A stretch of DNA of 30,578 nt from the IMG/VR virus record IMGVR_UViG_3300013120_000316, positions 1 through 30,578 of that record. One strand, given 5' to 3'. Positions 2,143 through 25,030 of the stretch are shown here, one piece after another (position 1 is the first letter of the stretch; each line of letters starts with the position of its first letter). This DNA comes from a virus. A program made the position numbers and the translations under genes. The notes beneath the pieces were generated by a model. The model was not told the DNA's origin, searched no databases, and saw only the letters and a list, made by a program, of their open reading frames with translations.

Positions 2143-2153
2143 TTTTGGTATTT

Positions 2154-2205: not shown

Positions 2206-2236
2206 TTGCAAATGTAATTAAATAGAAAATTGTAAT

Positions 2237-2764: not shown

Positions 2765-2776
2765 AAACACTAAGTA

Positions 2777-2974: not shown

Positions 2975-2978
2975 AAAT

Positions 2979-3230: not shown

Positions 3231-3288
3231 TATGTTTTTATAACGTATGGGTAAGTTTAGCACGAATGATTTAGTAATAATTTAACAC

Positions 3289-3741
3289 ATGAAAACGATG
3301 GAATATACAGGAAAACTTTACGGAAAAATAGGAAATAAATATTTTGATACAGGAGTTACAAGCGAGGATTACGACAAACTACAAACGATGAATATAGAAC
3401 AAACATTAAATGACGTTGCGAACTATTTTAAGCACAAAATAATTGAAGGTGAATTTGAATTTAAAAAGTGCGGGGAGCATACAGCAACAGTATTAATTGA
3501 TGAAAAATACGAGTTCCAATTATGGATAGCTAATGAGCCAAAAAACAACTTTGACTTTTATGATAGTAGCTTTATGATTAAAAATAGCGCCGACTTTCTG
3601 AAATTTAGAACACAAAAAGAACGACTTGCGGGGTGGAGACAGATTAAACCACACGTACAAGCTTACAAAAACAAGGTGCTTAAAAGAGAGAAGCAAAAGG
3701 AACTTAATAGGCTAAAAAAGGAATTAGAAGCACTTGATTAG
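3289..3741 (+). CDS. Unknown phage protein, 150 aa
   Basis: Begins MKTMEYTGKLYGKIGNKYFD; the phrase TGKLYGKIGxKYxxxxxTSEDYDKL is one I associate with small phage-encoded hypothetical proteins, but no function is attached to it. The centre has a beta-rich stretch (HTATVLIDEKYEFQLWIANEP), and residues 115-150 form a basic coiled coil (YKNKVLKREKQKELNRLKKEL). ATG 3298 (residue 4) is an alternative start. It is followed by the cassette-like intergenic element at 3749-3846. Confidence 0.65.
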   Translation: MKTMEYTGKLYGKIGNKYFDTGVTSEDYDKLQTMNIEQTLNDVANYFKHKIIEGEFEFKKCGEHTATVLIDEKYEFQLWIANEPKNNFDFYDSSFMIKNSADFLKFRTQKERLAGWRQIKPHVQAYKNKVLKREKQKELNRLKKELEALD

Positions 3742-3748
3742 CCTTGCA

Positions 3749-3846
3749 TATAACGGTTTGTATAAGATTTGAAGGGCAAACCACTAACGATAATTAAGAG
3801 AGCAAAAGGCTATATTGTCCTTTTAATTTTATACTTCGTTATAGCC
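3749..3846 (+). repeat. attC-like bipartite palindrome
   Basis: The order is TATAACG (3749-3755), 4 nt, GTATAA (3760-3765), a 63-nt centre, TTATAC (3829-3834), 2 nt, CGTTATA (3837-3843). Both arm pairs are perfect reverse complements and the spacers differ in length on the two sides. This outer pair/inner pair layout with asymmetric spacing is the R''-L''...L'-R' layout of integron attC sites. The right boundary word GTTATAGCC (3838-3846) is the reverse complement of GGCTATAAC (4150-4158) after the next gene. Structure is seen; the integron connection is inference. Confidence 0.5.
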
Positions 3847-3862
3847 AGTTAATTTTATAATA

Positions 3863-4147
3863 ATGCACAGAAATCCAAAAACAGTACGTGAGCTTAAAGA
3901 AACAATAAGCTTAAAAGAAAGTGAATTAATAGAACTTAAGCACCAATTAAAAAACGAACTTGAATTAGTGCCTGTAGGTTACGAGCTTATTGGTTCTGGT
4001 GATGAAGTTAAGGCGGGGGCGTTGGGTTATGAGCCTTACCACGGAAATTGGAGCAAAACAGGAAACTCGGTAGGTAAGATACTGAATGAGCAAGGATATG
4101 TAACAGGAATAACCCATAGAGGGTGGAAATATGCCAACCCGGTTTAA
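3863..4147 (+). CDS. Small coiled-coil protein in a cassette-like unit, 94 aa
   Basis: Residues 5-35 (TVRELKETISLKESELIELKHQLKNELELV) are a clear amphipathic coiled coil. The C-terminal half is glycine-rich (GSGDEVKAGALGYEPYHGNWSKTGNSVGKI) and ends HRGWKYANPV. Function unknown. The gene is bounded by a perfect 9-bp inverted repeat, GTTATAGCC on the left and GGCTATAAC 2 nt after the stop, so the whole unit resembles a one-gene cassette of about 310 bp. Start ATG 3863 follows an A/T-rich leader (TTTTATAATAATG). Confidence 0.6.
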   Translation: MHRNPKTVRELKETISLKESELIELKHQLKNELELVPVGYELIGSGDEVKAGALGYEPYHGNWSKTGNSVGKILNEQGYVTGITHRGWKYANPV

Positions 4148-4149
4148 TT

Positions 4150-4158
4150 GGCTATAAC
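4150..4158 (+). repeat. Right inverted end GGCTATAAC of the 3863 unit
   Basis: GGCTATAAC directly follows the stop codon at 4147 and is the exact reverse complement of GTTATAGCC at 3838-3846. The following bases continue as GCAGATGGGG. In integron cassettes the first bases of a cassette and the R'' box behind its gene pair in this way. Confidence 0.5.
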
Positions 4159-4197
4159 GCAGATGGGGTATGTGCTGAGAATTTAAAACAATTAGAT

Positions 4198-4503
4198 ATG
4201 ATAAAACTTAAAGACAAAATTAATAAGAGTGTGGCATTACGAACAATACGCAGAGATGCTGAAAAGATGTACAAAGAAAGTTGGCAGCCTGAATTGCAAA
4301 TAGAAGCCTATGTAAAAGGGGCAGAGGCTATTTTAAATTATTTGCACATACCACGTGTTAGCGGTAGTTTTCACTCAAATACAAACGAAGAGAATGAAAA
4401 GATACTGACTGATATACTTTACGAACATACAGATGAAAAAGAGATGAAAATTAGAGAAGTTGATTATGAGGAAGTGATTAAGGATATAATGGAATATTTT
4501 TAA
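4198..4503 (+). CDS. Unknown helical protein, 101 aa
   Basis: ATG 4198 is chosen over an in-frame ATG at 4123, which would overlap the previous gene and run through the GGCTATAAC boundary. The protein is helical and acidic (ALRTIRRDAEKMYKESWQPE; EAYVKGAEAILNYLHI; EVDYEEVIKDIMEYF). No family recognised. The pattern AxxIYKESWxPELxxEAYxxGA is reminiscent of phage proteins of unknown function. It is followed by ACCGCTAACGGCC (4507-4519), another TAACGG element, and a CCAG...CTGG hairpin. Confidence 0.6.
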   Translation: MIKLKDKINKSVALRTIRRDAEKMYKESWQPELQIEAYVKGAEAILNYLHIPRVSGSFHSNTNEENEKILTDILYEHTDEKEMKIREVDYEEVIKDIMEYF

Positions 4504-4509
4504 ATAACC

Positions 4510-4535
4510 GCTAACGGCCACCAGCTATGAACTGG
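4510..4535 (+). repeat. GCTAACGG element with CCAG/CTGG hairpin
   Basis: GCTAACGG (4510-4517) lies 6 nt behind the stop, followed by CCAGCTATGAACTGG (CCAG and CTGG arms around seven bases). The next stretch TTACAGATAAATGATAAAACGAG resembles the leaders at about 1191 and 1546. It is a further, degenerate member of the recurring gene-end element. Confidence 0.4.
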
Positions 4536-4592
4536 CTTTGATTGATTACAGATAAATGATAAAACGAGTATAAAACTTTAAAAACACGAGCG

Positions 4593-4832
4593 ATGGCAGA
4601 TGCTAAAATAACGAGACTTAGGAACTTATTAACGCCTGTAAAGAACTACTTTACATTGCTAGAGGTCGCAGAAAAAGCAAGCGCAAACGATGAGATAGAA
4701 AAGTTTAATGTTACGCTTGCTATAATGAGGACGGAAATAGAAAGGATTAACGAGACTAAAGAAGAGATATGGGGAATAATAGCTGAAATCCCAGATAACG
4801 CGTGCGACGGTTTGGCTAAACGGTCGTTTTAA
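4593..4832 (+). CDS. Small helical unknown protein, 79 aa
   Basis: Begins MADAKITRLRNLLTPVKNYF and is almost entirely helical with an acidic second half (NVTLAIMRTEIERINETKEEIWGIIAEIPD). No catalytic motif or family is recognised. ATG 4593 follows an A-rich stretch. The last codons (GLAKRSF) and the stop overlap the GGCTAAACGG arm (4814-4823) of the intergenic element that precedes the methyltransferase. Confidence 0.6.
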   Translation: MADAKITRLRNLLTPVKNYFTLLEVAEKASANDEIEKFNVTLAIMRTEIERINETKEEIWGIIAEIPDNACDGLAKRSF

Positions 4833-4857
4833 TGCCGTTTTAGCTGTTGTTAGGCAC
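4814..4857 (+). repeat. attC-like element before the methyltransferase
   Basis: GGCTAAACGG (4814-4823) pairs with CCGTTTTAGC (4835-4844) except for a one-base offset, and GTTAGGCAC follows at 4849-4857. GTTAGGC fits the integron R' consensus GTTRRRY exactly. GTTAGGCAC is the reverse complement of GTGCCTAAC at 5837-5845 behind the methyltransferase gene. Confidence 0.5.
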
Positions 4858-4883
4858 AGTTTACCACCGATAAAATTAATAGA

Positions 4884-5834
4884 ATGGAATTAAATACAGT
4901 ACATAATATAGATTTTTTAAATAATGATTTGCCCGATAAATGTGCAAATTTAATAATTGCAGACCCTCCATACTTCGAGGTAAAAGGAGATTTTGATTTT
5001 GTATGGAATAGCTTTGAAGATTATTTAAAAGACGTTGAAAAATGGGCTATTGAATGTAAAAGGATTTTATCAGATAATGGCACTTTGTTTTGGTATGGAG
5101 ATGCTAAAAATATCGCTTATGCTCAAATAATTTTTGATAAGCATTTTAATTTAATGAGCAATGTTACTTGTCATATTTTTGATAGGCAAACAAATAAAAC
5201 ACCAATAGAAGAAGCACGTAGTTTTATTAGTACTACTGAACGTATTTTAATGTATAGCAACGAAACGTATAATTTAACTCAATGTGTTTACCATATACGG
5301 GATTACATAAGAAAAGAAATAACCAAAGCAAAAGGTAAAATAGTATTAAAGCAAGTTAATGAAGCTTTAGGAACTGCAACAAATGGTGGTGGTGTTGCAA
5401 GTGCTTGCTTAAGCTTAAATAAAGCTGAGCCAACAATGCTAACAAAAGAAATGTATGAGAAATTGCAAGATTGGTGCTATCCATATTTACGCAAGGAATA
5501 CGATGAACTACGCAAGGAATACGATGAACTACGCAGACCATTTAACCCAACAGAAAAATATAAAATGGATGTATTAAGAGTTTCACAAGAAGGGCACATT
5601 ACAGGTAAATACGACCACGACACAGTAAAACCAGAAAAGCTAACAAGGATATTAATAAACACTTGTAGCCGTGAAAATGATTTAGTAGTAGTTCCTTTTG
5701 CTGGAAGTGGAACAGAGTGTGCAATGAGTGCAAAAGAAAAACGTAATTTTATAGGCTACGAGATAACAGAGAAACACGCAAAGATGGCACAAGATAGAGC
5801 GAATAAAATATTAAAAGAACCTACTTTGTTTTAA
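4884..5834 (+). CDS. DNA N6-adenine methyltransferase, beta-type motif order
   Basis: 316 aa. The catalytic motif DPPY is at residues 27-30 and the AdoMet-binding motif FAGSGT at about 272-277, followed by NFIGYEI. Motif IV before motif I is the order of beta-class amino-methyltransferases; DPPY usually indicates N6-adenine. The enzyme should methylate a specific DNA site, most likely to protect phage DNA or tune gene expression; no restriction partner is present. Residues about 202-217 contain a duplicated KEYDELR heptad encoded by a perfect 21-bp tandem repeat. The gene is bounded by 9-bp inverted ends GTTAGGCAC and GTGCCTAAC, so it may be an acquired cassette. Start ATG 4884 is clear. Confidence 0.92.
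   Translation: MELNTVHNIDFLNNDLPDKCANLIIADPPYFEVKGDFDFVWNSFEDYLKDVEKWAIECKRILSDNGTLFWYGDAKNIAYAQIIFDKHFNLMSNVTCHIFDRQTNKTPIEEARSFISTTERILMYSNETYNLTQCVYHIRDYIRKEITKAKGKIVLKQVNEALGTATNGGGVASACLSLNKAEPTMLTKEMYEKLQDWCYPYLRKEYDELRKEYDELRRPFNPTEKYKMDVLRVSQEGHITGKYDHDTVKPEKLTRILINTCSRENDLVVVPFAGSGTECAMSAKEKRNFIGYEITEKHAKMAQDRANKILKEPTLF
5488..5535 (+). repeat. 21-bp tandem repeat inside the methyltransferase gene
   Basis: Two perfect copies of a 21-bp unit (5488-5508 and 5509-5529, starting TACGCAAGGAATACG) and a partial third copy (5530-5535). The unit keeps the frame and encodes RKEYDEL. Copy number could change by slippage, adding or removing one helical heptad between the two halves of the enzyme. 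Confidence 0.85.
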
Positions 5835-5836
5835 TT

Positions 5837-5911
5837 GTGCCTAACTACGTTATATAAGACAGTCCACTGGTGTATATACTCCAAATAAGACGGATATAAA
5901 CACCGTAGTTA
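5837..5911 (+). repeat. attC-like element behind the methyltransferase
   Basis: GTGCCTAAC (5837-5845) contains GCCTAAC, which fits the integron R'' consensus RYYYAAC. TAACTACG (5842-5849) pairs perfectly with CGTAGTTA (5904-5911), and an inner TATAT/ATATA pair follows with unequal spacing. Total length about 75 bp, in the usual attC range. It starts 3 nt after the methyltransferase stop. Confidence 0.5.
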
Positions 5912-5933
5912 AAATTTGTTAAAAAAATAACTT

Positions 5934-12082: not shown

Positions 12083-12586
12083 TTAAGCGTTCCAAATTCC
12101 ACTAGGTAGCCAAAATCCTGAACTATTCCAAACCCCAGTTTCCAATACCCACACTTGATCCACTACCCCAAAATCAACCATTTTTTGACCAAAAACAGGA
12201 TTAACCATATCAACAGCGTAATGATTCGAAATGTTATTATTTATATTACTTCCTTTAAACTTGAGAGGAGAAAGAATTATCTTTTCGCTTTTATCGTAAA
12301 ACTCAACTTTTGCAAGCCATCCGTAAATTGATTTTTTAAGGCTATTTATTTTAGATTTTGTCCCCTTCGATAAATCATATATCTTACAATTCAATTCATA
12401 CAAGAATAGCGTTTTATTCCCCTTGCTTCTCTCGGGCGTAAAGCTCAAACGGATTTCTTGGTCGTTATTTAAAACAATACTTTGACCGCTTCCAGAAATT
12501 GAGGAAATAGCTGAGCCATTATAAAAGATCGAAATATCTTTGTTTTCAATCAGTTCAATACTATATATTCCCGCTTGTTCTATCAT
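12083..12586 (-). CDS. Unknown tail-region protein, 167 aa
   Basis: Starts at ATG 12586 with a 4-nt overlap to the upstream gene. Beta-rich throughout (IYSIELIENKDISIFYNGSAISSISGSGQSIVLNNDQEIRLSF). The end carries a tryptophan-rich repeat: VWVLETGVWNSSGFWLPSGIW, four W at near-regular spacing, which suggests a small beta-prism or a contact surface with a partner protein or sugar. No family recognised. Its position between a tail completion-like gene and fibre-like genes suggests a tail or baseplate component. Confidence 0.55.
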   Translation of the reverse strand: MIEQAGIYSIELIENKDISIFYNGSAISSISGSGQSIVLNNDQEIRLSFTPERSKGNKTLFLYELNCKIYDLSKGTKSKINSLKKSIYGWLAKVEFYDKSEKIILSPLKFKGSNINNNISNHYAVDMVNPVFGQKMVDFGVVDQVWVLETGVWNSSGFWLPSGIWNA

Positions 12587-13053
12587 GGTTCGGTACAGAA
12601 TGAAATTAACTGATTTTCTTTAGCTCTTATCTCAAGCTGAACGCCTGTAAGTATAGAGTTATACCTCTTAAACATAGGTTTTACTTTATATCTAAACGTT
12701 TCAGCTCCCTCAAGTCTTATATTGTTTTTACGGTAAATAATTCCCGCTATATTATCCGCTAATGGCTCAAGCGCGTCAATTATGATTTGTGACTCTTCGG
12801 AGTTAGCGTCCTTTGTATCTTGAGCTAATATTTGAACCTGAATCAATGTGTCGGATAAAACGTTCGCGTTCGGTTGAATAGCTTTGTTTTTGTCCGCATC
12901 ATTGAAAATAATAATATAAGGAGCCGCGGTGGTTAGTTTAGATTCGTCCAAGTCGTGGGAATTTCGATTCGCTAAGAACCATGAAGAAAAAACGATTTCC
13001 GATGTTGGGAATCTTGTTTCGATAACTAACTTTAAATCACTTGGTAAGCTCAT
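12583..13053 (-). CDS. Tail-region protein, 156 aa
   Basis: Starts at ATG 13053, which overlaps the stop of the -1 frame extension of the upstream gene as ATGA. Layout: a helical start (PSDLKLVIETRFPTSEIVFSSW), a beta segment (APYIIIFNDAD), LIQVQILAQDTKDANSEESQIIIDALEPLADNIAGIIYRKNNI and a closing sheet (RYKVKPMFKRYNSILTGVQLEIRA). The order resembles tail terminator/completion proteins, which cap the tail tube, but position after the tape measure is unusual for that. Function is not established. Confidence 0.6.
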   Translation of the reverse strand: MSLPSDLKLVIETRFPTSEIVFSSWFLANRNSHDLDESKLTTAAPYIIIFNDADKNKAIQPNANVLSDTLIQVQILAQDTKDANSEESQIIIDALEPLADNIAGIIYRKNNIRLEGAETFRYKVKPMFKRYNSILTGVQLEIRAKENQLISFCTEP

Positions 13054-13331
13054 TTTTTTCTGTTCTTATGTTCAATATACCTTTGTTCAAAGTTAATACT
13101 TTCTTTGTTCCCTATCAAAATTTTGGTAACATAAGCATCGTTCATCCTAAAAATTTCCTCATCACTCTTATTTAGCAACTTACTAAGAGTCTGGATTTCG
13201 TAGTAATTTAGATATGTGGAAAGTTTATCGATACCAAGTTGTTTTTTGATATCCGAATCGCGGTCAATGCTATTAACCGACTGAAATAATTCACGCCGCT
13301 GCTCTTGCCAAGTAACGAATTTTTGAGCAAA
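13050..13331 (-). CDS. -1 frame extension of the 13208-13792 gene
   Basis: From the T9 run at 13329-13337 the -1 frame stays open and reads F-A-Q-K-FVTWQEQRRELFQSVNSID and on to YIEHKNRKK, ending at TGA 13050-13052. It has no own start codon near the run. Its composition is that of a real helical, charged protein, and its stop overlaps the next gene's ATG (ATGA), as in the other gene pairs here. It is therefore either the shifted half of a programmed frameshift product or the second half of a gene broken by an indel in the homopolymer. Confidence 0.7.
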   Translation of the reverse strand, partial: FAQKFVTWQEQRRELFQSVNSIDRDSDIKKQLGIDKLSTYLNYYEIQTLSKLLNKSDEEIFRMNDAYVTKILIGNKESINFEQRYIEHKNRKK

Positions 13332-13792
13332 AAAAAAGCCGTAGGTAATACAGATAAATAAGGCTCATTCATTATTTTTTCCTTCAAATCGTTGACTTTT
13401 CCAAAATCCATTGAATCAGAAGCCAAGCCGACAGCCAAAACAAAACAAAAATATTCCTCTTGTTCCATCTTTTGCGCGTTCTCTTCTATCATCCACCTTT
13501 GGCCAACGGTTGAAATTTCATCCGGAACATAAAAAAACGAGCTATCTTTAAATACAAGCTTTTTCGATGGTTTGATTTTTGAATAATCTTCAACTTTTCC
13601 GATCCGTTTTAAAAGAGCGTTGTTTCCGACCTTAGAAAAAAAAGCCTCTTTGTAGTTAATCCCTAGTACTACGGATAAATAAGATACAATATTTTGTTTT
13701 TCACTGGAAATAAATTCGACGTACTGATTTACTGTTAATTCCGAAGACGTTGGAATCTCTTTTTTTTCGCCGTTAATTTTAAGTTTTATCAT
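13208..13792 (-). CDS. Probable tail assembly protein, upstream half of a frameshift pair
   Basis: 194 aa in the unshifted frame. It begins MIKLKINGEKKEIPTSSELT, then VNQYVEFISSEKQNIVSYLSVVLGINYKEAFFSKVG; a beta start followed by helices. After residue 154 the unshifted tail (LLKNSLLGKSSG...SINFPHI) looks like the weaker of the two possible C-termini. At codons GCT-TTT-TTT-TTG (13339-13328) a -1 slip gives a protein of about 245 aa. Tail assembly chaperone genes of long-tailed phages (lambda G and GT are the model) use such a shift, but they normally precede the tape measure gene whereas this one follows it. The function is thus inference; the frame change is seen. Confidence 0.65.
   Translation of the reverse strand: MIKLKINGEKKEIPTSSELTVNQYVEFISSEKQNIVSYLSVVLGINYKEAFFSKVGNNALLKRIGKVEDYSKIKPSKKLVFKDSSFFYVPDEISTVGQRWMIEENAQKMEQEEYFCFVLAVGLASDSMDFGKVNDLKEKIMNEPYLSVLPTAFFLLKNSLLGKSSGVNYFSRLIALTAIRISKNNLVSINFPHI
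13329..13337 (-). other. T9 slippery run at a -1 frame change
   Basis: Nine T on the - strand. In the upstream frame the codons are GCT TTT TTT TTG, giving the heptamer T-TTT-TTT that fits X-XXY-YYZ. A -1 slip after the second TTT enters the extension frame. TGCTC right after the run can pair with GAGCA about 20 nt further on. Ribosomal slippage, polymerase slippage or an indel would all produce this picture. Confidence 0.65.
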
Positions 13793-14001
13793 TTGTCAAG
13801 GTTTCTTTTTAAATCTCGTTCAATTGTTTTAACCGATACACATAGAATTTGAGATAGTGCAAATTTTACATCTTCAGTTTTTCGAGCGTATCCCAACGAG
13901 TAAGCTGTTTCTCGTAAATCTTTGGCCGCTTTAGATTTATCCTTAATTGCCGCCTGAACGAATCTCGCTCTTTTATCCAATAGTTTATCGTCTCTTTGCA
14001 T
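13789..14001 (-). CDS. Small helix-turn-helix protein, 70 aa
   Basis: Residues 43-66 (DVKFALSQILCVSVKTIERDLKRNL) match a helix-turn-helix of the xxIAxxLxVSxxTIxRDLxxL type seen in DeoR-like and sigma-like proteins; the N-terminal 40 residues are basic and helical (RARFVQAAIKDKSKAAKDLRETAYSLGYARK). It is the first gene after the + strand island and has its own TACCTTTG promoter; the stop overlaps the next ATG (ATGA). It may regulate the late genes that follow or the divergent island; a structural role is less likely for its composition. Confidence 0.65.
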   Translation of the reverse strand: MQRDDKLLDKRARFVQAAIKDKSKAAKDLRETAYSLGYARKTEDVKFALSQILCVSVKTIERDLKRNLDK

Positions 14002-14116: not shown

Positions 14117-14344
14117 ATGGCAGACACTAGAGAAATTGATGTATTGATAGCCAAATTAAGAGATGTATTCCCATTCCCAAAAGAAAAGGATTATGATAAT
14201 GGCTATGACTGGAGCAAAAAAGACGGTTGGCATTTAGCTGGTATAACACGAGACCCTAAAGATTGTCTAGAAATGATGATAGGAGTGTGTGAGGGTATGG
14301 ATAACAAAGACATTAACGAAGTGTGCTTAAATTATAAGAAATGA
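14117..14344 (+). CDS. Island protein 1, unknown, 75 aa
   Basis: ATG 14117, first gene of a + strand island inside the - strand late region. Acidic and short: MADTREIDVLIAKLRDVFPF, then KDYDNGYDWSKKDGWHLAGI and a helix ending NEVCLNYKK. No family recognised. It overlaps the next gene's ATG by 4 nt (ATGA). With its own promoter, operator and downstream terminator it has the hallmarks of a moron: a gene expressed independently of the late genes, often changing host properties or blocking other phages. Confidence 0.65.
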   Translation: MADTREIDVLIAKLRDVFPFPKEKDYDNGYDWSKKDGWHLAGITRDPKDCLEMMIGVCEGMDNKDINEVCLNYKK

Positions 14345-14589
14345 AGAGATTAATGAATAAACTACGCAATGCACAATCTAAATATTGTGGTGCAATAGGT
14401 AGTGTCGAAGCTGAAATAGCTGATAAGGTGGAATTTGATTTTAACATACTTTATCAAGAATCTGATGGATGGGTTATGCTCGCTGAAATAAATGATGATA
14501 GTAAAAACGCAGGGCTATATTTCCTTTTGGAAATAATAAAGCAAAAAGGTGTGTTGACTGAAGATGATTATTTGAAACACATAATCTAA
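14341..14589 (+). CDS. Island protein 2, unknown, 82 aa
   Basis: Coupled to the previous gene by ATGA. It begins with a basic helix (MKRLMNKLRNAQSKYCGAIG) and continues as an acidic mix of strands and helix (VEFDFNILYQESDGWVMLAEINDDSKNAGLYFLLEIIKQKG). No family recognised. GGGGCTATAACGG follows 7 nt after the stop, the same boundary element as in the early block, which links this island to the cassette-like genes on the left. Confidence 0.65.
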   Translation: MKRLMNKLRNAQSKYCGAIGSVEAEIADKVEFDFNILYQESDGWVMLAEINDDSKNAGLYFLLEIIKQKGVLTEDDYLKHII

Positions 14590-14600
14590 TGCAAAGGGGC

Positions 14601-14637
14601 TATAACGGCCACTAAATTTTAAAATAGTGTTATAAAG
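14601..14637 (+). repeat. Compact attC-like element
   Basis: TATAAC (14601-14606), GGC, CACTA (14610-14614), a 10-nt centre, TAGTG (14625-14629), TTATA (14630-14634). Both arm pairs are perfect and only one side carries a 3-nt spacer, as in attC asymmetry. GTTATAAAG (14629-14637) is the reverse complement of CTTTATAAC at 14794-14802. 18 bases (GGCCACTAAATTTTAAAA, 14607-14624) recur at 2959-2976. Confidence 0.55.
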
Positions 14638-14645
14638 ATTTAATT

Positions 14646-14801
14646 ATGATTGCAAAACTAGATATAGAAATATATGAAAAATGGGGCGGTGATGAATGGG
14701 CTCAAGCAAAATACTTAGTACATGGGTATGATGATGTTTTGTGGACTAACAACTTAGAAGACGCATTACAGTTTTTAAAAGAGAGCTGTAATTCTTTATA
14801 A
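14646..14801 (+). CDS. Island protein 3 in a cassette-like unit, 51 aa
   Basis: ATG 14646 to TAA 14799-14801: MIAKLDIEIYEKWGGDEWAQ, then AKYLVHGYDDVLWTNNLEDALQFLKESCNSL. Acidic with five aromatic residues, plausible as a compact alpha/beta protein; no family recognised. The unit is bounded by GTTATAAAG (14629-14637) and CTTTATAAC (14794-14802), a perfect 9-bp inverted pair, the right one overlapping the stop codon. It is followed by a strong terminator. Too short for standard gene calls but well supported by context. Confidence 0.6.
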   Translation: MIAKLDIEIYEKWGGDEWAQAKYLVHGYDDVLWTNNLEDALQFLKESCNSL

Positions 14802-14802
14802 C
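14794..14802 (+). repeat. Right inverted end CTTTATAAC of the 14646 unit
   Basis: Exact reverse complement of GTTATAAAG at 14629-14637. It overlaps the stop codon and continues as GGCC, giving the same TATAACGGCC word as at 14601-14610. Confidence 0.5.
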
Positions 14803-14817
14803 GGCCTTGAAAATACC

Positions 14818-14848
14818 AAAGGGGCGTTTTAACGCCCCCTTTTTTTTA
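14818..14848. terminator. Terminator between island and tape measure gene
   Basis: GGGGCGTT-TT-AACGCCCC followed by T8 on the + strand. It ends the + strand island; on the - strand it has only a short T run, so some late read-through is possible. Confidence 0.9.
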
Positions 14849-17431
14849 TATTACACCTACGTTCGTGACGTTATCAACATCTGAGATGCCTGTTTTAATA
14901 TCTTGTACTTGTACCACAATTGGAGGCAAACTCGCTGCAACCTGTCTTGTGATTTCGCTTACGTCTTGAGTGGCTGCGGCAGGGCTTACCGTTCCTCCGT
15001 CTTGCATTTTAAAAGTCTTACTTCCTTGCAGCGGAACACCCCCGAAACGTTGATTTATATCGCTCAATGAATTAATATAGTCTGAAGCCTCTTTTTTAAC
15101 TACATAAAAATTTTCTCTTCCTTCGACGTTTGCCACATGTTCGCCCGTTCCAGTAAACAAGTCAATCCCACCGCCTGCGTGAGAAGGTCCGGAAAAAGTA
15201 CCGAAGCTGGCCCCGTTCTTAGCGATTGGAACTTGGCCACCTTTTCCGAATTGTTGCTTTTTAATTGTGGCAACTTCTAGCCCCCCTTTAACACCCGCGA
15301 CACCTGCGGCAAGTAAAGCATTTGGATAAAATGGAATAACAGTCGCAAGAGCGTTACCGATAGCAAGAGCAGTATTTATAAAAGCTTGTTTTATAGCGTC
15401 TTTTTTCTTCTGCTTCGAGAATTTCTTTCGGATAGCTTCTTTTTTATTTTCGTTTTCCCCCGCTGCCTCAAGTTCTCTTCTTTCTTGCGCGTCCCTTGTG
15501 GCATTCTGTAGGGCGAAAAATGATTGGGCCAAATCTTGAGCCACTGCAAAGCTTGAGGCTATTATGTCACGCCGGCGATTCGCTTTGTTTTGCTCTATTT
15601 CCAATTCTTTATCCGCTTGCGCGACTCTTGCGTCTGTCTGAGCCTCTAAAGCTACAGTAGTTTGCTCAATTTCTTGGTCGAGGAATTCGCCTTGGGATTC
15701 CAAAAAGGCTTCTTCGTTGGCTTCTAAATCAGTCAATAATTGAGCGTTTAAGTCTGTTAAACCTTGGTTTATTGTCTTTTGACTTTCTACAAGTTCAGCC
15801 TCAACTATCCTGCGTTCGCGGATTATCTCCAACAAACGGCCTTCAATAATTTCAGATAAACCAAGGGCGCGTATTCGCTCATTTAATGAAACGGCGTTTG
15901 TTTCATCAAGTAAGCTTTGCGCGTCTATAGCCTTCCCCGCGAATTGTTCAATTATTTCTAACTGCTTATCGTAAGACTTTTGACTCTCATTTTCTACAAT
16001 TCCGAGGGCTTCAATTCGTTTACCTATATTTTCCTTGTCATTGTCTACAATCCTATCGTTAATAGTTTTTGTATTATCAAAACCGTCGATTAAAATATCC
16101 AAATCCTTTTCAAGTCTATCCTGTACGATTTGGCGACGCTCTTTTTCGTTTTCAATAAAAGCTACTTGAGCTTCTTCATGGGCTTTAATAACCGCCGCCT
16201 GTGCGTCTGCTTCGGTTTTAGCCTCTTCTCTTGTGAGTTGGTTTTGTTCGCGTTTTAAATCATTCTCCCTTGTTATAAGTTCGAGATTTTTTTCAGCTAA
16301 TTCAACTCTAATTTTGGCGGTTGCCTCTTCTGTTTTACGGGCGTTTTCATTAGCTTCAGCAAGCTCTTTAAAGCTTCGTGTAGAATCTCCGGCAATGGCT
16401 TGAAATATCGCCGTCTGTTTCTCTAAACTGGCCAACGTTGTAGTAGTGGAAATATTAAGTTTTTCAATTTCAATCCTTAATTTTTCAATTGCTCCGACTT
16501 CTTTGAAAGTCTTTTTTATTTCATCTCCCATTCCCGCGAACGCTTCTCCTGTTGCTTTTAAAGCCCCTTGAATGTCACCACCTAAAAGCTTTCCAAAAGC
16601 TTCTTTTAGGCGTATTATTCGGCCGACAATAACCTGTATAACCGAACCAATTTGTTTTAAAGCTATGCTCACAGCGTCGACGACTGGTTCAAACTTTGAG
16701 AATGCAGCGATTAACAATCCTAAAGCAACAACAATAGCACCGATACCAGTTGATATAAGAGCGATTTTAAATAATTTGAGTGCTTTCGTTCCTGTGCTTA
16801 CGCCTTGTGCTTGCGCTTGGAATGCTTTTCCTGAAGCGGAGACAATAGCATTAAATTTCTCTTGGAACCCTCTCGCGGTTGATATTGCCCCGCCGAATAA
16901 ACTTGTTTCTCCAAGAGCTTCTTTGATTGCCTCAGTATAACCACCAACGGAAAGCTTGTTTTTTTCGGTAACTGTTGAACCTTCGACCAATTGTTCATTA
17001 AGTTTATCAATTCTCTTTCTTAATTCTTCGCTTTTGTCAATTTCCTCCTGTGTAGATGTGCCGAGCGCGTTACGTTCTTTTATAAGCTTGGATATAGTTT
17101 GAGTCAATTGGTTTCGAGAACCTTTTTCAGTAGATATTAACTTAATACTATCCTTACGCTCTTTCTTTTCTTTCTGTAGAAAGTTTTTATTTACCTCTAT
17201 AGCCTGAGCATTAGAAGTAAGTTGCTTCGATAGCTCGCGGCGTGTTTTGCCCTCCTTTTGTAGTTCACCGTCCGTTTTCCTTAACTCCTTTTGAATAGCT
17301 TTTTGTTGGGTCGCCAAGTCCCTGTTTTGGTCTTCTAAATTAACAATTGAAGCCGTTAAAGATTCAACATTTTTTTCAGCTTCTCGTGTATCATATTCAA
17401 CGCTTACAATTATTTTCTCCTCGTCTGCCAT
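14846..17431 (-). CDS. Tail tape measure protein, 861 aa
   Basis: The longest gene of the window. Residues 15-150 are coiled coil (NLEDQNRDLATQQKAIQKEL and following), residues 220-244 are a hydrophobic span (LFKIALISTGIGAIVVALGL...), and about 330-670 are again charged coiled coil rich in E, A, K and Q. A second apolar part lies near 690-725, and the end is glycine-rich (GGGIDLFTGTGEHVANVEGRENFYVVKK). This coil-span-coil layout is that of tape measure proteins, which set tail length inside the tube and help DNA entry. Known scaling of about 0.15 nm per residue would give a tail near 130 nm. Start overlaps the upstream stop (TAATG). Confidence 0.92.
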   Translation of the reverse strand: MADEEKIIVSVEYDTREAEKNVESLTASIVNLEDQNRDLATQQKAIQKELRKTDGELQKEGKTRRELSKQLTSNAQAIEVNKNFLQKEKKERKDSIKLISTEKGSRNQLTQTISKLIKERNALGTSTQEEIDKSEELRKRIDKLNEQLVEGSTVTEKNKLSVGGYTEAIKEALGETSLFGGAISTARGFQEKFNAIVSASGKAFQAQAQGVSTGTKALKLFKIALISTGIGAIVVALGLLIAAFSKFEPVVDAVSIALKQIGSVIQVIVGRIIRLKEAFGKLLGGDIQGALKATGEAFAGMGDEIKKTFKEVGAIEKLRIEIEKLNISTTTTLASLEKQTAIFQAIAGDSTRSFKELAEANENARKTEEATAKIRVELAEKNLELITRENDLKREQNQLTREEAKTEADAQAAVIKAHEEAQVAFIENEKERRQIVQDRLEKDLDILIDGFDNTKTINDRIVDNDKENIGKRIEALGIVENESQKSYDKQLEIIEQFAGKAIDAQSLLDETNAVSLNERIRALGLSEIIEGRLLEIIRERRIVEAELVESQKTINQGLTDLNAQLLTDLEANEEAFLESQGEFLDQEIEQTTVALEAQTDARVAQADKELEIEQNKANRRRDIIASSFAVAQDLAQSFFALQNATRDAQERRELEAAGENENKKEAIRKKFSKQKKKDAIKQAFINTALAIGNALATVIPFYPNALLAAGVAGVKGGLEVATIKKQQFGKGGQVPIAKNGASFGTFSGPSHAGGGIDLFTGTGEHVANVEGRENFYVVKKEASDYINSLSDINQRFGGVPLQGSKTFKMQDGGTVSPAAATQDVSEITRQVAASLPPIVVQVQDIKTGISDVDNVTNVGVI

Positions 17432-19206
17432 TATAGGAATTTTAGTAATTTAATTTTTGTTTTCTGTCCCGGTATATAATCTTCGATAATAAGAACGAAG
17501 AAGTAAGATTTTTCACTATCGATATAAACAAGCTGCGTAAAGTCAAAACCGAGTACATCGAGTTTATTTAAGTCTGCGCACCCTTCAATAACTCGAGTTC
17601 TATATAACGAATCGAACCAATTTTTATAATAGTTGGCTTTCAAACTTCGCCAATCTAGCTCCAAGAATCTGCCAAGGGTATAAGTTCCGGGGGCCGAATC
17701 GTTGTAAAAATATAAAATCCGTGGGTTTAAATCGTTTTCGCGCTTAGTGTCGTTGTAAATATCGAAATCGCCTATACTAAAACCGTTTAACTCTATATCA
17801 TTAGTGGCCGAAAAAGGGATTTTTAAATACTCTTTCACATCCTCAAAACTCTCATTAAATATCTTAAAAGTATCTTTCCCGACGCTTGAATCAATTGTAT
17901 CGTCGTTATCATAAACAAGCTCGTTGTTTTGCCCTGCTTTTGTAAGTATGTTTCCCACCGTTCGAGTGTCTTGGTCGTACTTGTCCGACCAGTCAACTGA
18001 ATTCAATTTTGATAGGTTTTTAAGCGATTTTATCTTAATGTTTTTCTTGAATGAATCTGGTTCATAAATCGAATTTGTAAGAATTGCGCTTAATTTAAAC
18101 AAGTCTAGTTGCGAAATCTTAAGAAAATTATCATAAGCCTTTACTTTATAATCTAAAAGCGGGTTTGCTGCTAAATCACCGAAGTCCTGTTCTTCAATTA
18201 TAGTATATAATAGAGTGTTTTTGAATTCGAAATTCCCATTCCCTTCTATTAATACTTCGATCGCAATGTCGTTCGTAGAGCTTGAAAAATCTTTCGATGT
18301 GAGATCAATTTCTGTTTGTGAGGAATCAACTATAAATTCCTGAACAGTTTCTTTTAATGTGACGCTTTCAGTTCCTTTTATCTTAATTCTTACTTGCGAA
18401 TCTGCTTCAATTTCACCGCGCAAACGAAATTTTTGCTTTGTTCCTCCAATATTTATAGTTGTGGAATCTAAAACATTCCCCTTATTGAAATCTACTGTAT
18501 TTAATCCTGTTAAATGTTGAGAACCAGACAAAACCAAAGCTTCATTAATTGTTTTTTGATAGCTAGTCACGTAAAATTTGGTATGATTTGCAGAAATACA
18601 AACGCTTTCGCTTAAATCCTGATCGTTTTCGAACGTCCATCCCTGATTATTTACCAAAGAATTTAATAAGTAATTCAGCGAAAACATAGGACGCGAGTAT
18701 TTTAAACCATCATTTCCGGCAGTGAATCGGCTTTTATCGATAGTCCTGTCTTCGTGCATCGAAACAATTGGCCAAATCCAAAGGCGGCTACTTGAAGGGA
18801 GTTTAAGCGTGTCGTAATTCGTTTGATCGAAAATAATATCTTGATCATCGAAACCAAGTTTTTTTATTTCGTCTTTTAAATTATCGAATAAATCTTTTGT
18901 TTTGTCGGCTAATTGAAATGAGAAAGTATTTCTATTGTATTCGCTGATAAATCCTATACCATCAAAAATCGGTGTTTGATCGATGTATTTAGCAGGGTAA
19001 TTTTTATCTAAACTCAAACTATCGGAATTCAATGTAAAAGGAAAATCGAAAACCTCTTTATTATTCTGAGTTATAGGGAGTTCAAACTTATTTGAAATGC
19101 CGATCAGCCGCGTTGTTGGTGAGCTTGGATCAATCACTTGGCGAGTAAGCGCGATTAATTGAGTTGATAGATCGATCTCCTTTCCATTTACTTCGAGTTT
19201 TTTCAT
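17431..19206 (-). CDS. Large tail/baseplate protein upstream of the tape measure, 591 aa
   Basis: ATG 19206 is chosen (MKKLEVNGKEIDLSTQLIAL); the TTG two codons earlier lies within the promoter box region. The protein is beta-rich with repeated aromatic and aspartate residues (SNKFELPITQNNKEVFDFPF; YDNFLKISQLDLFKL). The opening (short name-like strand, then PTTRLIGISNKFELPIT) is like distal-tail or baseplate hub proteins of Bacteroidota phages that attach to the tube. No enzymatic motif seen. It has its own near-perfect promoter (TTTG, 20 nt, TAAATTTG) that would give a leaderless mRNA, and is coupled to the tape measure gene. Confidence 0.65.
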   Translation of the reverse strand: MKKLEVNGKEIDLSTQLIALTRQVIDPSSPTTRLIGISNKFELPITQNNKEVFDFPFTLNSDSLSLDKNYPAKYIDQTPIFDGIGFISEYNRNTFSFQLADKTKDLFDNLKDEIKKLGFDDQDIIFDQTNYDTLKLPSSSRLWIWPIVSMHEDRTIDKSRFTAGNDGLKYSRPMFSLNYLLNSLVNNQGWTFENDQDLSESVCISANHTKFYVTSYQKTINEALVLSGSQHLTGLNTVDFNKGNVLDSTTINIGGTKQKFRLRGEIEADSQVRIKIKGTESVTLKETVQEFIVDSSQTEIDLTSKDFSSSTNDIAIEVLIEGNGNFEFKNTLLYTIIEEQDFGDLAANPLLDYKVKAYDNFLKISQLDLFKLSAILTNSIYEPDSFKKNIKIKSLKNLSKLNSVDWSDKYDQDTRTVGNILTKAGQNNELVYDNDDTIDSSVGKDTFKIFNESFEDVKEYLKIPFSATNDIELNGFSIGDFDIYNDTKRENDLNPRILYFYNDSAPGTYTLGRFLELDWRSLKANYYKNWFDSLYRTRVIEGCADLNKLDVLGFDFTQLVYIDSEKSYFFVLIIEDYIPGQKTKIKLLKFL

Positions 19207-19209
19207 AAA

Positions 19210-19241
19210 CAAATTTACTTTAATTCGTTATAGTTTGCAAA
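19210..19241 (-). promoter_or_regulatory. Promoter of the tail operon (- strand)
   Basis: On the - strand TTTG (19241-19238), 20 nt, TAAATTTG (19217-19210): a perfect match to the Bacteroidota promoter. The last G is 4 nt from ATG 19206, so the transcript is probably leaderless. The -33 box abuts that of the opposite promoter (TTTGCAAA). Confidence 0.8.
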
Positions 19242-19265
19242 TTGATATATTTTATTATATCTTTG
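19234..19265 (+). promoter_or_regulatory. Promoter of the 19426 island (+ strand) with operator-like site
   Basis: TTTG (19234-19237), 20 nt, TATCTTTG (19258-19265), again a perfect match. The spacer holds TATATTTTATTATA (19246-19259), 13 of 14 matches to the recurring palindrome, ending on the TA of the -7 box as in the 14063 copy. 20 bases ATTGATATATTTTATTATAT (19241-19260) recur in inverse orientation at 29580-29599. Confidence 0.8.
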
Positions 19266-19302
19266 AGCTTCTTATTTAAGTCAAATCATTTAATCATTAA
19301 CT

Positions 19303-19407
19303 AATGAAAAAGTAAACTACAAACCCGACTCAATCCATTAGTCACGGTAAAAGCTCCCGGTATTTTAATATAAACGCTATTATTATTTCGAAGCCGGGAG
19401 TATTTTT
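19303..19407 (+). other. Structured leader of the 19426 gene
   Basis: The roughly 150-nt leader has a three-codon ORF (ATG AAA AAG TAA at 19303), GACT/AGTC arms near 19328-19343, and CTCCCGG (19354-19360) paired with CCGGGAG (19394-19400) followed by TATTTTT. The last hairpin resembles a weak terminator in front of the gene, so attenuation is possible. Confidence 0.45.
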
Positions 19408-19425
19408 AAAACTTAAATTAATGAA

Positions 19426-19686
19426 ATGCGTTACGCTTTAAGAAATAGAGACAAGCTTCTCAAAGCCTTTGGGGTGGACTTTTACAATGTCCTTGAAAAC
19501 TCCCTTGATTGGGCAGTAATAGCAAATCGCCACCACGAAACAGAGTTCGAGCAGCTAGATTCAGGACATGATAAGTTTAAAATGATCCAAGTTAAGGAAA
19601 TCAACGGTGACCGAATTTTCGAGTTTTACGTCGTTTCGATCACTTTTGACTGTTGGGTGCTTGGGTTTAAACAGGTTAAAAATTGA
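19426..19686 (+). CDS. Island protein 4, unknown, 86 aa
   Basis: ATG 19426, first gene of the second + strand island. Begins MRYALRNRDKLLKAFGVDFY, followed by NVLENSLDWAVIANRHHETEFEQL and a beta-rich end (IQVKEINGDRIFEFYVVSITFDCWVLGFKQ). No family recognised. Expressed from a consensus promoter with operator-like site and a long leader. Its setting, opposite to the tail genes, suggests a moron with a role outside particle assembly. Confidence 0.65.
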   Translation: MRYALRNRDKLLKAFGVDFYNVLENSLDWAVIANRHHETEFEQLDSGHDKFKMIQVKEINGDRIFEFYVVSITFDCWVLGFKQVKN

Positions 19687-19691
19687 TTGTT

Positions 19692-19847
19692 ATGAGTGAA
19701 TTAAAAACTATATACATAATAAACCTTGCTGATTGCGTATTCGATAATAAAGGTAATTTAGTCAGGTTAAAAAGAAAATACGGCAACCACAAGAGAGTAG
19801 TTCATAAGGATAAAATTACTGAGCCAAAGCCCCCTCAGGGAGAATGA
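19692..19847 (+). CDS. Island protein 5, basic, 51 aa
   Basis: ATG 19692, 5 nt after the previous stop, to TGA 19847: MSELKTIYIINLADCVFDNK, then GNLVRLKRKYGNHKRVVHKDKITEPKPPQGE. Basic and short, beta-like start with a positively charged tail; no family recognised. The last 32 nt overlap the end of the convergent gene 19816-20247, and no terminator is seen between them, so antisense overlap of the two mRNAs is expected. Confidence 0.55.
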   Translation: MSELKTIYIINLADCVFDNKGNLVRLKRKYGNHKRVVHKDKITEPKPPQGE

Positions 19848-20247
19848 TTTCAATAGGCAAATTATATCTTCCATCTGTTTGCCTGTAGCTAAGGCGATTC
19901 TTCCCGAGGCCAATTCTCTCAACTGAGCCGTCTTTTCTGATTCGAATTATCTTCGTTGCTTCGAAAATAGATGAATACACCTCCAGATCATTCAAGGTTA
20001 AATCTTCGGCCTCAATAAGGCGGTTATTTTCTTTGGAGCCAATAATGTTTTTAAGTTTGGCGGCATCAGAGCGGTTAATAAACGACGTACTCACATCGTT
20101 TTCAACTTCCCAATCGGTAAACATTTTTACAATGAATTGACCGTCGCGGCCATACCATCCGAGCAAAAACTCGAACTCTTCATAGTTGGAATCATTTTCG
20201 CTTTCTGGTATCACTTTCTTGTATATCTGTGAAGTTATTGCCGCCAT
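19816..20247 (-). CDS. Tail-region structural protein, 143 aa
   Basis: ATG 20247 lies within the end of the upstream gene (13-nt overlap). It contains FEFLLGWYGRDGQFIVKMFTDWEVENDVSTSFINRSDAAKLKNIIGSKENNRLIEAEDLTL in two parts: an aromatic strand-rich start and a central helix, then strands (TKIIRIRKDGSVERIGLGKNRLSY). Similar proteins occur in tail blocks of Bacteroidota phages without assigned role. It is the last gene of the portal-to-tail transcript before the second + strand island. Structural role is inferred from position. Confidence 0.6.
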   Translation of the reverse strand: MAAITSQIYKKVIPESENDSNYEEFEFLLGWYGRDGQFIVKMFTDWEVENDVSTSFINRSDAAKLKNIIGSKENNRLIEAEDLTLNDLEVYSSIFEATKIIRIRKDGSVERIGLGKNRLSYRQTDGRYNLPIEIILPEGALAQ

Positions 20248-20552
20248 TGTCCGAATAATTTTCGATTGGTTAAATAATTTTTATCCGCTTCATTGTTGTA
20301 CGCTTCTTTTTCGAATGATATGTTTTTATAAGCCTGTTTTTTATCTTTCAATAAATACCATTTTAACAAGAATTCAAGCAAATAAACCACATAAAAACCG
20401 ATTAAAAGCAGTTCAATTTGCTGTCTGAAATGAATTCGCTCATGATTCAAATCAATATCGGTTATTGCCTTATCCTTGCGGACAAAGATAATAGGCCATA
20501 TTGCCATTGCTTTGAAGCCTTTGAATGGTATATATTTATTTTTCCAGATCAT
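20235..20552 (-). CDS. Small membrane protein with HExxH zinc-peptidase motif, 105 aa
   Basis: Starts MIWKNKYIPFKGFKAMAIWP. HERIH at residues 37-41 is an HExxH zinc motif and FEKEAYNNE (80-88) holds a candidate third ligand (E83 or E88). Residues 46-68 (IELLLIGFYVVYLLEFLLKWYLL) are one membrane span. I recognise the combination IPFKGFKA...NHERIHFRQQIELL...ISFEKEAY as a widespread small family of Bacteroidota genomes with no proven function. A zinc protease in the tail operon might process a virion protein or act on the host envelope. Both neighbours overlap or touch it, so it is part of the operon. Confidence 0.75.
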   Translation of the reverse strand: MIWKNKYIPFKGFKAMAIWPIIFVRKDKAITDIDLNHERIHFRQQIELLLIGFYVVYLLEFLLKWYLLKDKKQAYKNISFEKEAYNNEADKNYLTNRKLFGQWRQ

Positions 20553-21286
20553 TATGGCAAATAATCAATTTTTATCCATCCTCTATTATACGATGTCGAA
20601 TTATAATTAATGTTATCAAAAGGACCGTTCAAATCAGCTCTTATAGACACATTCATATCATCTGCGAAAATACATTCAGCTGATCCGGAAGCAGAAAATC
20701 CGCTTGCTAAATCACTGTATTTATCATCTGCATCTGTGCGAATAGTACACTGAAGCCCTCTTATTTTTGAGAAAGTCAATCCGTGGGCCACTAATTTGGG
20801 GACAGCTCCCGCATTATCTATATCCCAATCGCCGATTTCTATGATTTTAGTCAGCAATGGAGATACTTCGTTGTCTATATTAATAGATTCGAGAAATATG
20901 TCACCATCTTTATTGGTTATCCTGTAAATAATATCCTCGACGCCTGTATTTATATACGATTTACGAATTGAATTATCTATTGCCCCCGTAAAGGTCACGG
21001 TATTAGTGTGGCCCTTAGTTATTTTCAAGTATTTTATATTCCCGTGATTTATGCCTGAAAAGGAATAAGAGACATCACCTGTTTGAGTGAGAAAAATATA
21101 ATCAATCCCAGTGAAATCAATTGATTTCGTAGGGGCTGAAGAAACATCGCCCACGGATACATCTTTTTTTAACACGCAATTAGCTATAAATTCTTTTAAG
21201 TTGGGTTTGTGTGTTAATTCTAAATCGAGCAAAGGGGCCCAAAGATCGATCAACGCGTCTAATTCTGTTGTGTTTTTATCTGCCAT
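20552..21286 (-). CDS. Virion structural protein, 244 aa
   Basis: N-terminal helix (TELDALIDLWAPLLDLELTHK) then a beta-rich body with asparagine/threonine/isoleucine repeats (IDYIFLTQTGDVSYSFSGINHGNIKYLKITKGHTNTVTFTGAIDN). The C-terminal third (HGLTFSKIRGLQCTIRTDADDKYSDL...YNRGWIKIDYLP) looks like a separate domain that I associate with tail spike or appendage proteins of Bacteroidota phages. No enzymatic motif. It overlaps the HExxH gene by one base. Likely a tail or appendage component. Confidence 0.65.
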   Translation of the reverse strand: MADKNTTELDALIDLWAPLLDLELTHKPNLKEFIANCVLKKDVSVGDVSSAPTKSIDFTGIDYIFLTQTGDVSYSFSGINHGNIKYLKITKGHTNTVTFTGAIDNSIRKSYINTGVEDIIYRITNKDGDIFLESINIDNEVSPLLTKIIEIGDWDIDNAGAVPKLVAHGLTFSKIRGLQCTIRTDADDKYSDLASGFSASGSAECIFADDMNVSIRADLNGPFDNINYNSTSYNRGWIKIDYLP

Positions 21287-21288
21287 AA

Positions 21289-22233
21289 CTAAGTTGTTTT
21301 ATATTGTGAGGGGTTGTACTGCAATGGATTATATTGCGCCAATCCCGAATAATCCGCTTTTATTCTTATATATTCTGTTGATGAATTCCACACGGTTGTT
21401 TTATCAATATTTGCAAAAATAAACCCTTGTTTATTGCTATCCAAGTTTATAATAGGGTTATCAGTGGTTAAATCAACCTTATTAATATCGAGTTCATCAT
21501 ACTTGATATTTAAACCTTGATCGGTGCTGTTTTGTTTCGAATGTGCCAAGATTGCCCCGAATGGATAACCTTGATAAAATACTGCCTCATCCAAAGAGTT
21601 TAAAAAACTTTCATGTTCTGGCTGCTCTGTTGCGTACACTAAAATAATTTCGTCACCTATCAACGTGAAAGGTTCGCTTGAACCGCTATAAACCTGTTTA
21701 TATTGCATCTTAAAGGCGACTCTTGCTCCTTCTATCTCATCAGAAATAAACTCGAAAATATTATCGTTCCTGTCGTTTCCTGTCGATACATCAAGGCTTA
21801 TATTCCCTGCCAAATCCCCGTCGTCTTTAAGTGAAAAAGGAAGGATTTTAATTGCTTGGTTATCGCTTCCAACAAGTTCAGCCTCTATGAACCAATTTTT
21901 TAAATAGTTAATATATCCTGTCGCTGCGTTCTCTACGAAAATAATGTCTAAATCGATTGTTGTGGATGTGATTGCCGTCACTCTTCCGCTGTTTTCGTAT
22001 CTGTACCCTGCGACCCCTGTCGCGTCAAGATATAGCGAATCGCCGACACTTAACTCACTGGTTAAATCCTCAGCAATAGTCAATCTTATATTATCACCAA
22101 CACCCAAGCCGATTGAAACTATTTGCAAGTCTTCCCGTTTAAATTGGAAAACGACAGGTAAAAAACCCGCGAAAAGATTTTTTACAATCCCTCCTTCCGT
22201 TACAACTGGGGTGTTTATGAGAGTTAAAGCCAT
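21289..22233 (-). CDS. Virion structural protein, 314 aa
   Basis: Beta-rich throughout, starting MALTLINTPVVTEGGIVKNL and including VGDNIRLTIAEDLTSELSVGDSLYLDATGVAGYRYENSGRVTAI, a pattern of a small barrel repeated in tail tube and baseplate proteins. The end carries a short repeat QYNPLQYNPSQYKTT. No family recognised. It stands 2 nt from both neighbours in a tight operon. Possibly a tail appendage or baseplate component. Confidence 0.65.
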   Translation of the reverse strand: MALTLINTPVVTEGGIVKNLFAGFLPVVFQFKREDLQIVSIGLGVGDNIRLTIAEDLTSELSVGDSLYLDATGVAGYRYENSGRVTAITSTTIDLDIIFVENAATGYINYLKNWFIEAELVGSDNQAIKILPFSLKDDGDLAGNISLDVSTGNDRNDNIFEFISDEIEGARVAFKMQYKQVYSGSSEPFTLIGDEIILVYATEQPEHESFLNSLDEAVFYQGYPFGAILAHSKQNSTDQGLNIKYDELDINKVDLTTDNPIINLDSNKQGFIFANIDKTTVWNSSTEYIRIKADYSGLAQYNPLQYNPSQYKTT

Positions 22234-22235
22234 GT

Positions 22236-22730
22236 TTATTGCTTCTTTACTAAAATGTTAGCCCCGAAAGTGTGTCTTGTAATACCTCTAAAATCATCAT
22301 TTAGAGTAAAAAACAATTCATCCCCTTGCTTACCGTCGAGAATAAACGCACCTAAAGGAATATTTATGAACGCGCTCCAAAAATCATCACCAGCACCAAA
22401 ATTGAATATTTGCCCTTGTTGGAATATATCAAGCCATTGAGCCGTTGTTTTAATAGTTACGCCACGCGTTACATCTCTATAAACTCCATTTTTTTTACTG
22501 GTTATAGAAATGCCATTTGTAAGAGATGTAATACCACCATATTTTCCAGTACCAATTCCACCGTCTTCTATTTGGACAGAATTGTGGTAAAGAATCCATA
22601 TTTCTGTGTCAGGTGGTTTAAGCCTAGCAATTTTAGGTATTACAGAATAATCTCCATTAAAATTAGTGGTGTTATCGTCTGCAATCATTCTTGCGCTTCC
22701 CGAAACTCCCCATCTATCTGCGTTTGCCAT
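22236..22730 (-). CDS. Virion structural protein, 164 aa, possible tail tube
   Basis: Glycine-rich beta protein: MANADRWGVSGSARMIADDN, IWILYHNSVQIEDGGIGTGKYGGI, GRGVTIKTTAQ-like strands and a C-terminal TLNDDFRGITRHTFGANILVK. Size and location two genes after the head-tail connectors would fit a major tail protein, but the sequence alone does not prove it. Tight spacing with both neighbours (1-2 nt). Confidence 0.6.
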   Translation of the reverse strand: MANADRWGVSGSARMIADDNTTNFNGDYSVIPKIARLKPPDTEIWILYHNSVQIEDGGIGTGKYGGITSLTNGISITSKKNGVYRDVTRGVTIKTTAQWLDIFQQGQIFNFGAGDDFWSAFINIPLGAFILDGKQGDELFFTLNDDFRGITRHTFGANILVKKQ

Positions 22731-22731
22731 A

Positions 22732-23178
22732 TCAAATATTTTTAATTATCTGTGAATTCATTTCCTTTATCTGTAAAAGTAAATCGTTTTTGGCCCATTT
22801 CGGCGCGTTTTCTGAAATTGTTTTTTGTAAGGCTTCGATTTTAGGCTCTAACTGCAAGCCTTTGGACCTGTTCTTATAGATCGTGGTCCCTTCTCTTGCG
22901 ATTTTTCGAGCCACTAAAAAAGGAGGTATATCCAAACCCTTTTCAATTACCCATCTTTCAATTGCTGCCATTGGAGGAAATTTTCCCGGAGGCCGCCCTC
23001 GATTTAAGTATTCAAGGTAGAAAACGCCTTTTGAAGTTACTGAATTGGAATCGCTTTCAACTCTTAACGAATCGGAAGCGGCACCGGATGAATCCAGATT
23101 TCGAATGGACATTGTAGCCTTTATTTCGAAATTAAACAACTCGACCTCTTTTTCAGTATTTTCAATTAATTCGCTCAA
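22732..23178 (-). CDS. Head-tail joining / HK97 gp10-like protein, 148 aa
   Basis: The core YLNRGRPPGKFPPMAAIERWVIEKGLDIPPFLVARKIAREGTTI is the typical pattern of gp10-like tail completion proteins (GRxPGKxPPxxxIxxW...FxxARxIxxxGT). These proteins join the tail to the head or cap the tail. The start is taken as TTG 23178 because it overlaps the upstream stop (TTGA), with MSELIENTEK as first residues; the next ATG is 22 codons inside. TTG starts are rare here, so the ATG remains possible. Confidence 0.75.
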   Translation of the reverse strand: MSELIENTEKEVELFNFEIKATMSIRNLDSSGAASDSLRVESDSNSVTSKGVFYLEYLNRGRPPGKFPPMAAIERWVIEKGLDIPPFLVARKIAREGTTIYKNRSKGLQLEPKIEALQKTISENAPKWAKNDLLLQIKEMNSQIIKNI

Positions 23179-24951: not shown

Positions 24952-24965
24952 AATATATTTTTTAA

Positions 24966-25028: not shown

Positions 25029-25030
25029 GA

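Follow-up and report, generated by a model that had tools for sequence, protein, structure and literature searches.

A probable -1 frameshift at a conserved run of nine T in a tail-region gene of two divergent phages

Productive frameshifts in phage genomes are usually sought beside the tape measure gene and among the known chaperone families. Slippage during transcription is exemplified by genes with 9-nt runs of A or T, such as Thermus dnaX and Shigella mxiE. Shifts to the -1 frame of the lambda G/GT type are widespread among long-tailed phages, and bacterial RNA polymerase slips at runs of 9 A or T (PMC5009743). Here we describe a gene at 13792-13050 on the minus strand of the IMG/VR record IMGVR_UViG_3300013120_000316 (positions 1-30578; this entire stretch of 30,578 nucleotides is hereafter the window), which, judging from its sequence and that of a divergent homolog, very probably undergoes a conserved and productive -1 frameshift, one that is real and used, at a T9 run.

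The T9 run (A9 on the plus strand) is the longest homopolymer of the whole window, and the heptamer T-TTT-TTT within it stands in the correct phase relative to frame 0 (Table 1). Frame 0 terminates at 13208, about 40 codons past the run, and the -1 frame stays free of stops from 13364 down to the TGA at 13052-13050; a shift-prone run, as looked for in cases of recoding, is thus present where two open frames in a -1 relation meet. A one-base tandem slip of both TTT codons would yield GCT TTT TTT TTT GCT CAA, that is AFFFAQ, and a joined trans-frame product of 247 aa reading AFFFAQKFVTW across the junction. The sole start codon within the -1 frame is a TTG at 13178, which opens an ORF of 42 aa; as no usable start lies ahead of 13178, the -1 frame does not qualify as an independent gene. 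The original prediction, that the two frames meet with this heptamer at T9, that the extension adds about 90 residues and that its stop, overlapping the next ATG, marks a real gene end, is borne out in each part: the phase is right and the codon signal switches at the run, 92 codons follow AFFF, and the same ATGA join recurs in the relative described below.

Table 1. Coordinates of the frameshift gene and its neighbours in the window
Feature	Coordinates	Strand	Remarks
Frame-0 ORF (short product)	13208..13792	-	194 aa; 151 residues to AFFF, then a 40-aa non-coding-like tail
T9 shift site	13329..13337	-	frame 0 GCT TTT TTT TTG; heptamer T-TTT-TTT at 13337-13331
-1 frame extension (TTT GCT CAA ... 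TGA)	13050..13331	-	92 residues after AFFF; homolog in G007
Frame-0 tail after T9	13208..13328	-	codon score low; G007 frame-0 tail unrelated
ATGA join	13050..13053	-	-1 stop TGA 13052-13050 overlaps the next gene's ATG 13053-13051
Next gene	12583..13053	-	156 aa; resembles a tail terminator only in position and look; position as in G007
Gene conserved in G007, downstream of the frameshift gene	12083..12586	-	163 aa; E 4e-9
Upstream neighbour	13789..14001	-	70 aa; overlap-coupled (13792/13789); G007 homolog directly follows the tape measure gene

The coding signal on either side of the run was assessed with a codon model trained on the 29 other genes of the window. The 92-codon -1 extension scores 17.0 in this model, true windows ranging from 8.5 to 42 and off-frame ones reaching at most -12.4. 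In frame 0, the 39 codons that follow T9 score lower than all true coding windows (1168/1168, with stop codons excluded from the model) and equal the median of off-frame open windows, and the -1 reading of the same stretch falls within the ordinary coding range. The best point for a switch from frame 0 to -1 is T9 itself, the codon model alone also allowing switch points within about 10 codons on either side. Furthermore, off-frame open runs on the same strand never attain 90 codons in the 29 other genes (0 among 1349 runs), and since the longest of them reaches only 73 codons the -1 open frame is beyond chance. Codon statistics and the comparison with the relative together point to coding selection on both parts of the product, with a switch at the run.

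This relative, G007 (IMG/VR contig IMGVR_UViG_3300013117_000131, 33 kb, from a different dataset), was retrieved by a scan with an alignment of the capsid proteins of the window and of a distant relative, and its capsid protein is about 42% identical to that of the window. When G007 was searched with the joined protein, residues 152-246, which constitute the -1 extension, gave a match (E 3e-11) situated in a frame that is open for only 117 codons. The G007 homolog comprises a 206-aa frame-0 ORF with a T9 (GG GCT TTT TTT TTC; G007:21747-21755) at the AFFF motif, where the GC preceding the run is identical to that of the window, and an extension of 92 residues in the -1 frame, whose stop here too forms an ATGA with the start of the gene that follows. 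The joined products of 247 aa (window) and 266 aa (G007) align from end to end with 27% identity (E 2e-19). When split at AFFF, the N-terminal parts show 24% identity (E 5e-5) and the two 92-residue extensions 35% (E 1e-13); in neither case did any of 2000 shuffles attain the score. The extension, as the best conserved part of the joined products, is better conserved than the N-terminal part, which argues that the long product is essential. The frame-0 tails of the two phages are unrelated, as 1359 of 2000 shuffles reach their score; that of G007 is likewise non-coding-like, with its stop about 32 codons past the site. The shift site and the -1 relation of the frames are therefore kept in a divergent homolog, the lineages with the shift being two only, namely the window phage and G007. 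Because this distant relative splits identically, the longer protein is probably made by a deliberate one-base slip, and the same T9 and frame break, together with the strongly conserved products, lend support to the original prediction of a real, possibly programmed, -1 shift.

The same comparison bears on three explanations that dispense with a shift. The true genomes might each hold one continuous frame with the run miscalled by one base, as homopolymers attract errors of sequencing and assembly, the frame-0 tail is non-coding-like and the distant counterparts considered below are single ORFs. Such an error would nevertheless have to be made identically at the homologous codon in contigs of two different phages. 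Moreover, the other A/T runs of 8-9 lying well within genes of the window and G007 genomes, among them an A9 in the gene that adjoins the site in G007, keep the frame, and all the homopolymer lengths compared between the window and a near-identical contig, G001, which does not cover the T9 site, are equal; we therefore consider an error improbable. A recent inactivating deletion, which would make the gene a dying one and the short product its remnant, would likewise accord with the non-coding-like tail and with the fact that homopolymers are deletion hotspots, but the break is shared with G007, whose product is only 27% identical, and no part of the products is better conserved than the extension, leaving this reading with very little probability. 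Given the matching split at the corresponding position of G007, neither a one-off assembly error nor a dead gene is likely. The frequent short overlaps in the operon might suggest two overlapping genes, with the downstream one initiated independently of any shift; yet the sole -1 start is the TTG of the 42-aa ORF, and the G007 homology, of about 85 residues, starts at T9. Conservation thus extends upstream of any start codon and contradicts an independent downstream gene, which we judge the least credible of the three. As a separate observation, the G007 gene directly after the frameshift gene (L054:1235-1498) has an in-frame A9 and A8 of its own, which would also be slippage-prone.

With a productive shift as the preferred reading, we propose that most synthesis would stop at 13208 to give the 194-aa protein and that a fraction would slip by one base on U9 to give the 247-aa trans-frame protein, which would carry a second, mainly helical, C-terminal region. 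From this arrangement we infer that both the short and the long product are made. The slip might consist of two Phe-tRNAs re-pairing in tandem on U-UUU-UUU, or of a stutter of RNA polymerase as it copies the T9 template, and the sequence fits either the ribosome or the polymerase as the slipping machine. In the latter case the polymerase would add a U (or drop two) on T9 and the long product would arise by normal translation of the changed transcript, and mRNAs of mixed run length would be expected. A run of at least about 9 A or T at the frame break, the length at which bacterial RNA polymerase slips (threshold from PMC5009743), is present as T9 in both phages. No significant 3' RNA structure was found in the window phage or G007 (z -0.7 to 1.1, pseudoknot-free models), which counts against the shift as such but accords with transcriptional slippage; also in line with the latter, by eye there is no obvious Shine-Dalgarno-like stimulator upstream. 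Against this, T-TTT-TTT is an equally valid ribosomal slip site in the correct phase and, to our knowledge, the G/GT shifts investigated to date are all ribosomal; we accordingly hold transcriptional slippage to be a substantial possibility, though one falling somewhat short of an even chance. A more specific version, in which RNA polymerase slippage on the conserved T9 would set the ratio of short to long tail-assembly protein in Bacteroidota-type phages, with the gene having moved from the tape measure, is offered as a tentative and rather doubtful extension. As the site is a plain U9 without clear structure, a test to distinguish ribosome from polymerase would be simple.

The gene neighborhoods of the two phages place the frameshift gene differently. 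In the window the tape measure gene (14846-17431) precedes it, and two small plus-strand ORFs (14117-14589) stand between the tape measure gene and the operon that begins at 14001; the frameshift gene and its downstream neighbors come after the 14001 gene. In G007 the order is TerS, TerL, the frameshift gene, an 87-aa gene, a 153-aa tail-terminator-looking gene and the homolog of the window gene at 12586, followed by fibre-like genes, a gp10-like gene, probable tail tube genes and the tape measure gene, and then by the homolog of the window gene at 14001, ClpP, capsid and portal, some of these names being readings from position and sequence. In G007 the frameshift gene hence comes next after the large terminase and about 10 kb ahead of the tape measure gene, so that the location after the tape measure gene, correctly noted in the original prediction, represents a rearrangement. 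The usual slot of the gene apparently has terL on one side and a tail terminator on the other. The 156-aa next gene of the window gave no family match.

The near-identical contig G001 is 99.7% identical to the window and covers 14593-30578 and 1-5930, so that the frameshift gene falls outside its coverage. It carries 5.1 kb absent from the window, including the terminase genes, and through this segment (L007/L008) it links the window end at 30578 to the window start at 1. Because G001 joins the window ends, the phage genome can be taken as circularly permuted and about 36 kb in size, with the window lacking its terminase. The portal and tape measure proteins have their matches in Bacteroides, Cellulophaga and Croceibacter phages, and that of the capsid protein is in Bacteroides phage p00/BV01. 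Several further features were recorded in these genomes. The 167-aa gene at 12083-12586 has a 140-aa paralog (32% identity) in the 5.1 kb part of G001 (L007 16127-20000), just upstream of the terminase, and G001 has about 112 extra bases directly after its tape measure gene. A Lys/Ala/Glu-rich scaffold-like gene (25339-25875; KAAEAKAAEAK) contains a variable repeat, in which a 15-base in-frame insertion separates the window from G001. Within the tail operon, a membrane-protein-like ORF of 105 aa (20235-20552) contains an HExxH motif (HERIH) and overlaps the next gene by 13 bases, and a DNA methyltransferase gene (4884-5834) is strongly conserved in G007 (E 2e-86), unlike most other early genes.

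Searches for further members of the family reached only remote candidates. The joined protein, used directly as a query (tblastn of phages to E 10, peptide scans of IMG/VR and GTDB, PHROGs and Pfam), recovered nothing, and the frameshift protein matched no family model or solved structure in PHROGs, Pfam, NCBIfam or PDB; single-sequence AlphaFold models of the two halves had pLDDT values of 37 and 54, too poor for use. A further candidate, L019, found via the gene at 12586, was rejected as a chance portal match, and the genes before the tape measure gene of P2559Y and tant8-1 were inspected and yielded no comparable frameshift homolog. Cbastvirus genes headed the list of about 4000 ORFs scored with a two-sequence HMM of the frameshift family (E 0.002 and 0.03), and a comparison of profiles between the family and the Cbastvirus genes scored 25.0, against a column-shuffle maximum of 20.1, suggesting that the Cbastvirus genes are probable remote homologs. 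This gene (phrog_19423; phiST CGPG_00090, Larrie UXQ88761) resembles the frameshift gene in its slot before a tail-terminator-type gene and in length, and its weak sequence similarity (HMM E 0.002) is the top non-self match; a Bacteroides phage gene after terL shares the slot before a tail-terminator-type gene and a similar length. Unlike the frameshift gene, these positional counterparts are single continuous ORFs without a T run, from which it follows that the wider slot does not need a shift. In shuffle tests against the Larrie, phiST and Bacteroides phage counterparts the N-terminal part scored above chance and the C-terminal part did not, and their use as proof of a continuous ancestral frame was dropped after these tests; as just the N-terminal part exceeds chance, they constitute remote, positional evidence only. 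A continuous frame in relatives had been named beforehand as grounds for refuting the shift, and these counterparts are too remote to serve as such, G007 itself keeping both T9 and the break.

Of the markers by which productive shifts in phages are commonly sought, the frameshift gene has neither, yet the shift is kept across two phages with 27% identical products. The case suggests under-annotation of shifts of this kind in environmental Bacteroidota phages, in which gene callers cut the frameshift protein short or miss its better conserved half. By analogy with lambda gpG/gpGT, we marginally favor a chaperone-like action of the short and long products in tail assembly. As in lambda, a tail-region gene would gain a second C-terminal region by a -1 shift that is kept despite low similarity. 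The lambda chaperone is characterized, besides, by binding to the tape measure and major tail proteins and by its absence from virions. However, the chaperone family models do not match the frameshift protein; gpG/gpGT is encoded between the major tail and tape measure genes, in contrast to a position after the tape measure gene (window) or the large terminase (G007); and the lambda shift occurs near the end of frame 0, whereas here the frame-0 stop is far off, 40 (window) or 32 (G007) codons on, and the site is a plain U9. Failing on position, on family match and on how far off the frame-0 stop lies, the gene is not classed as a G/GT chaperone, and the lack of a family match and the differing position in both phages favor the earlier suggestion of a protein other than the usual chaperone. 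With the transcriptional slippage genes it shares a homopolymer at the frame break, an extended trans-frame product and the lack of a clear RNA structure, the difference from Thermus dnaX and Shigella mxiE being that it is a phage tail-region gene. The frameshift gene represents an undescribed protein family, to which a known recoding trick is extended.
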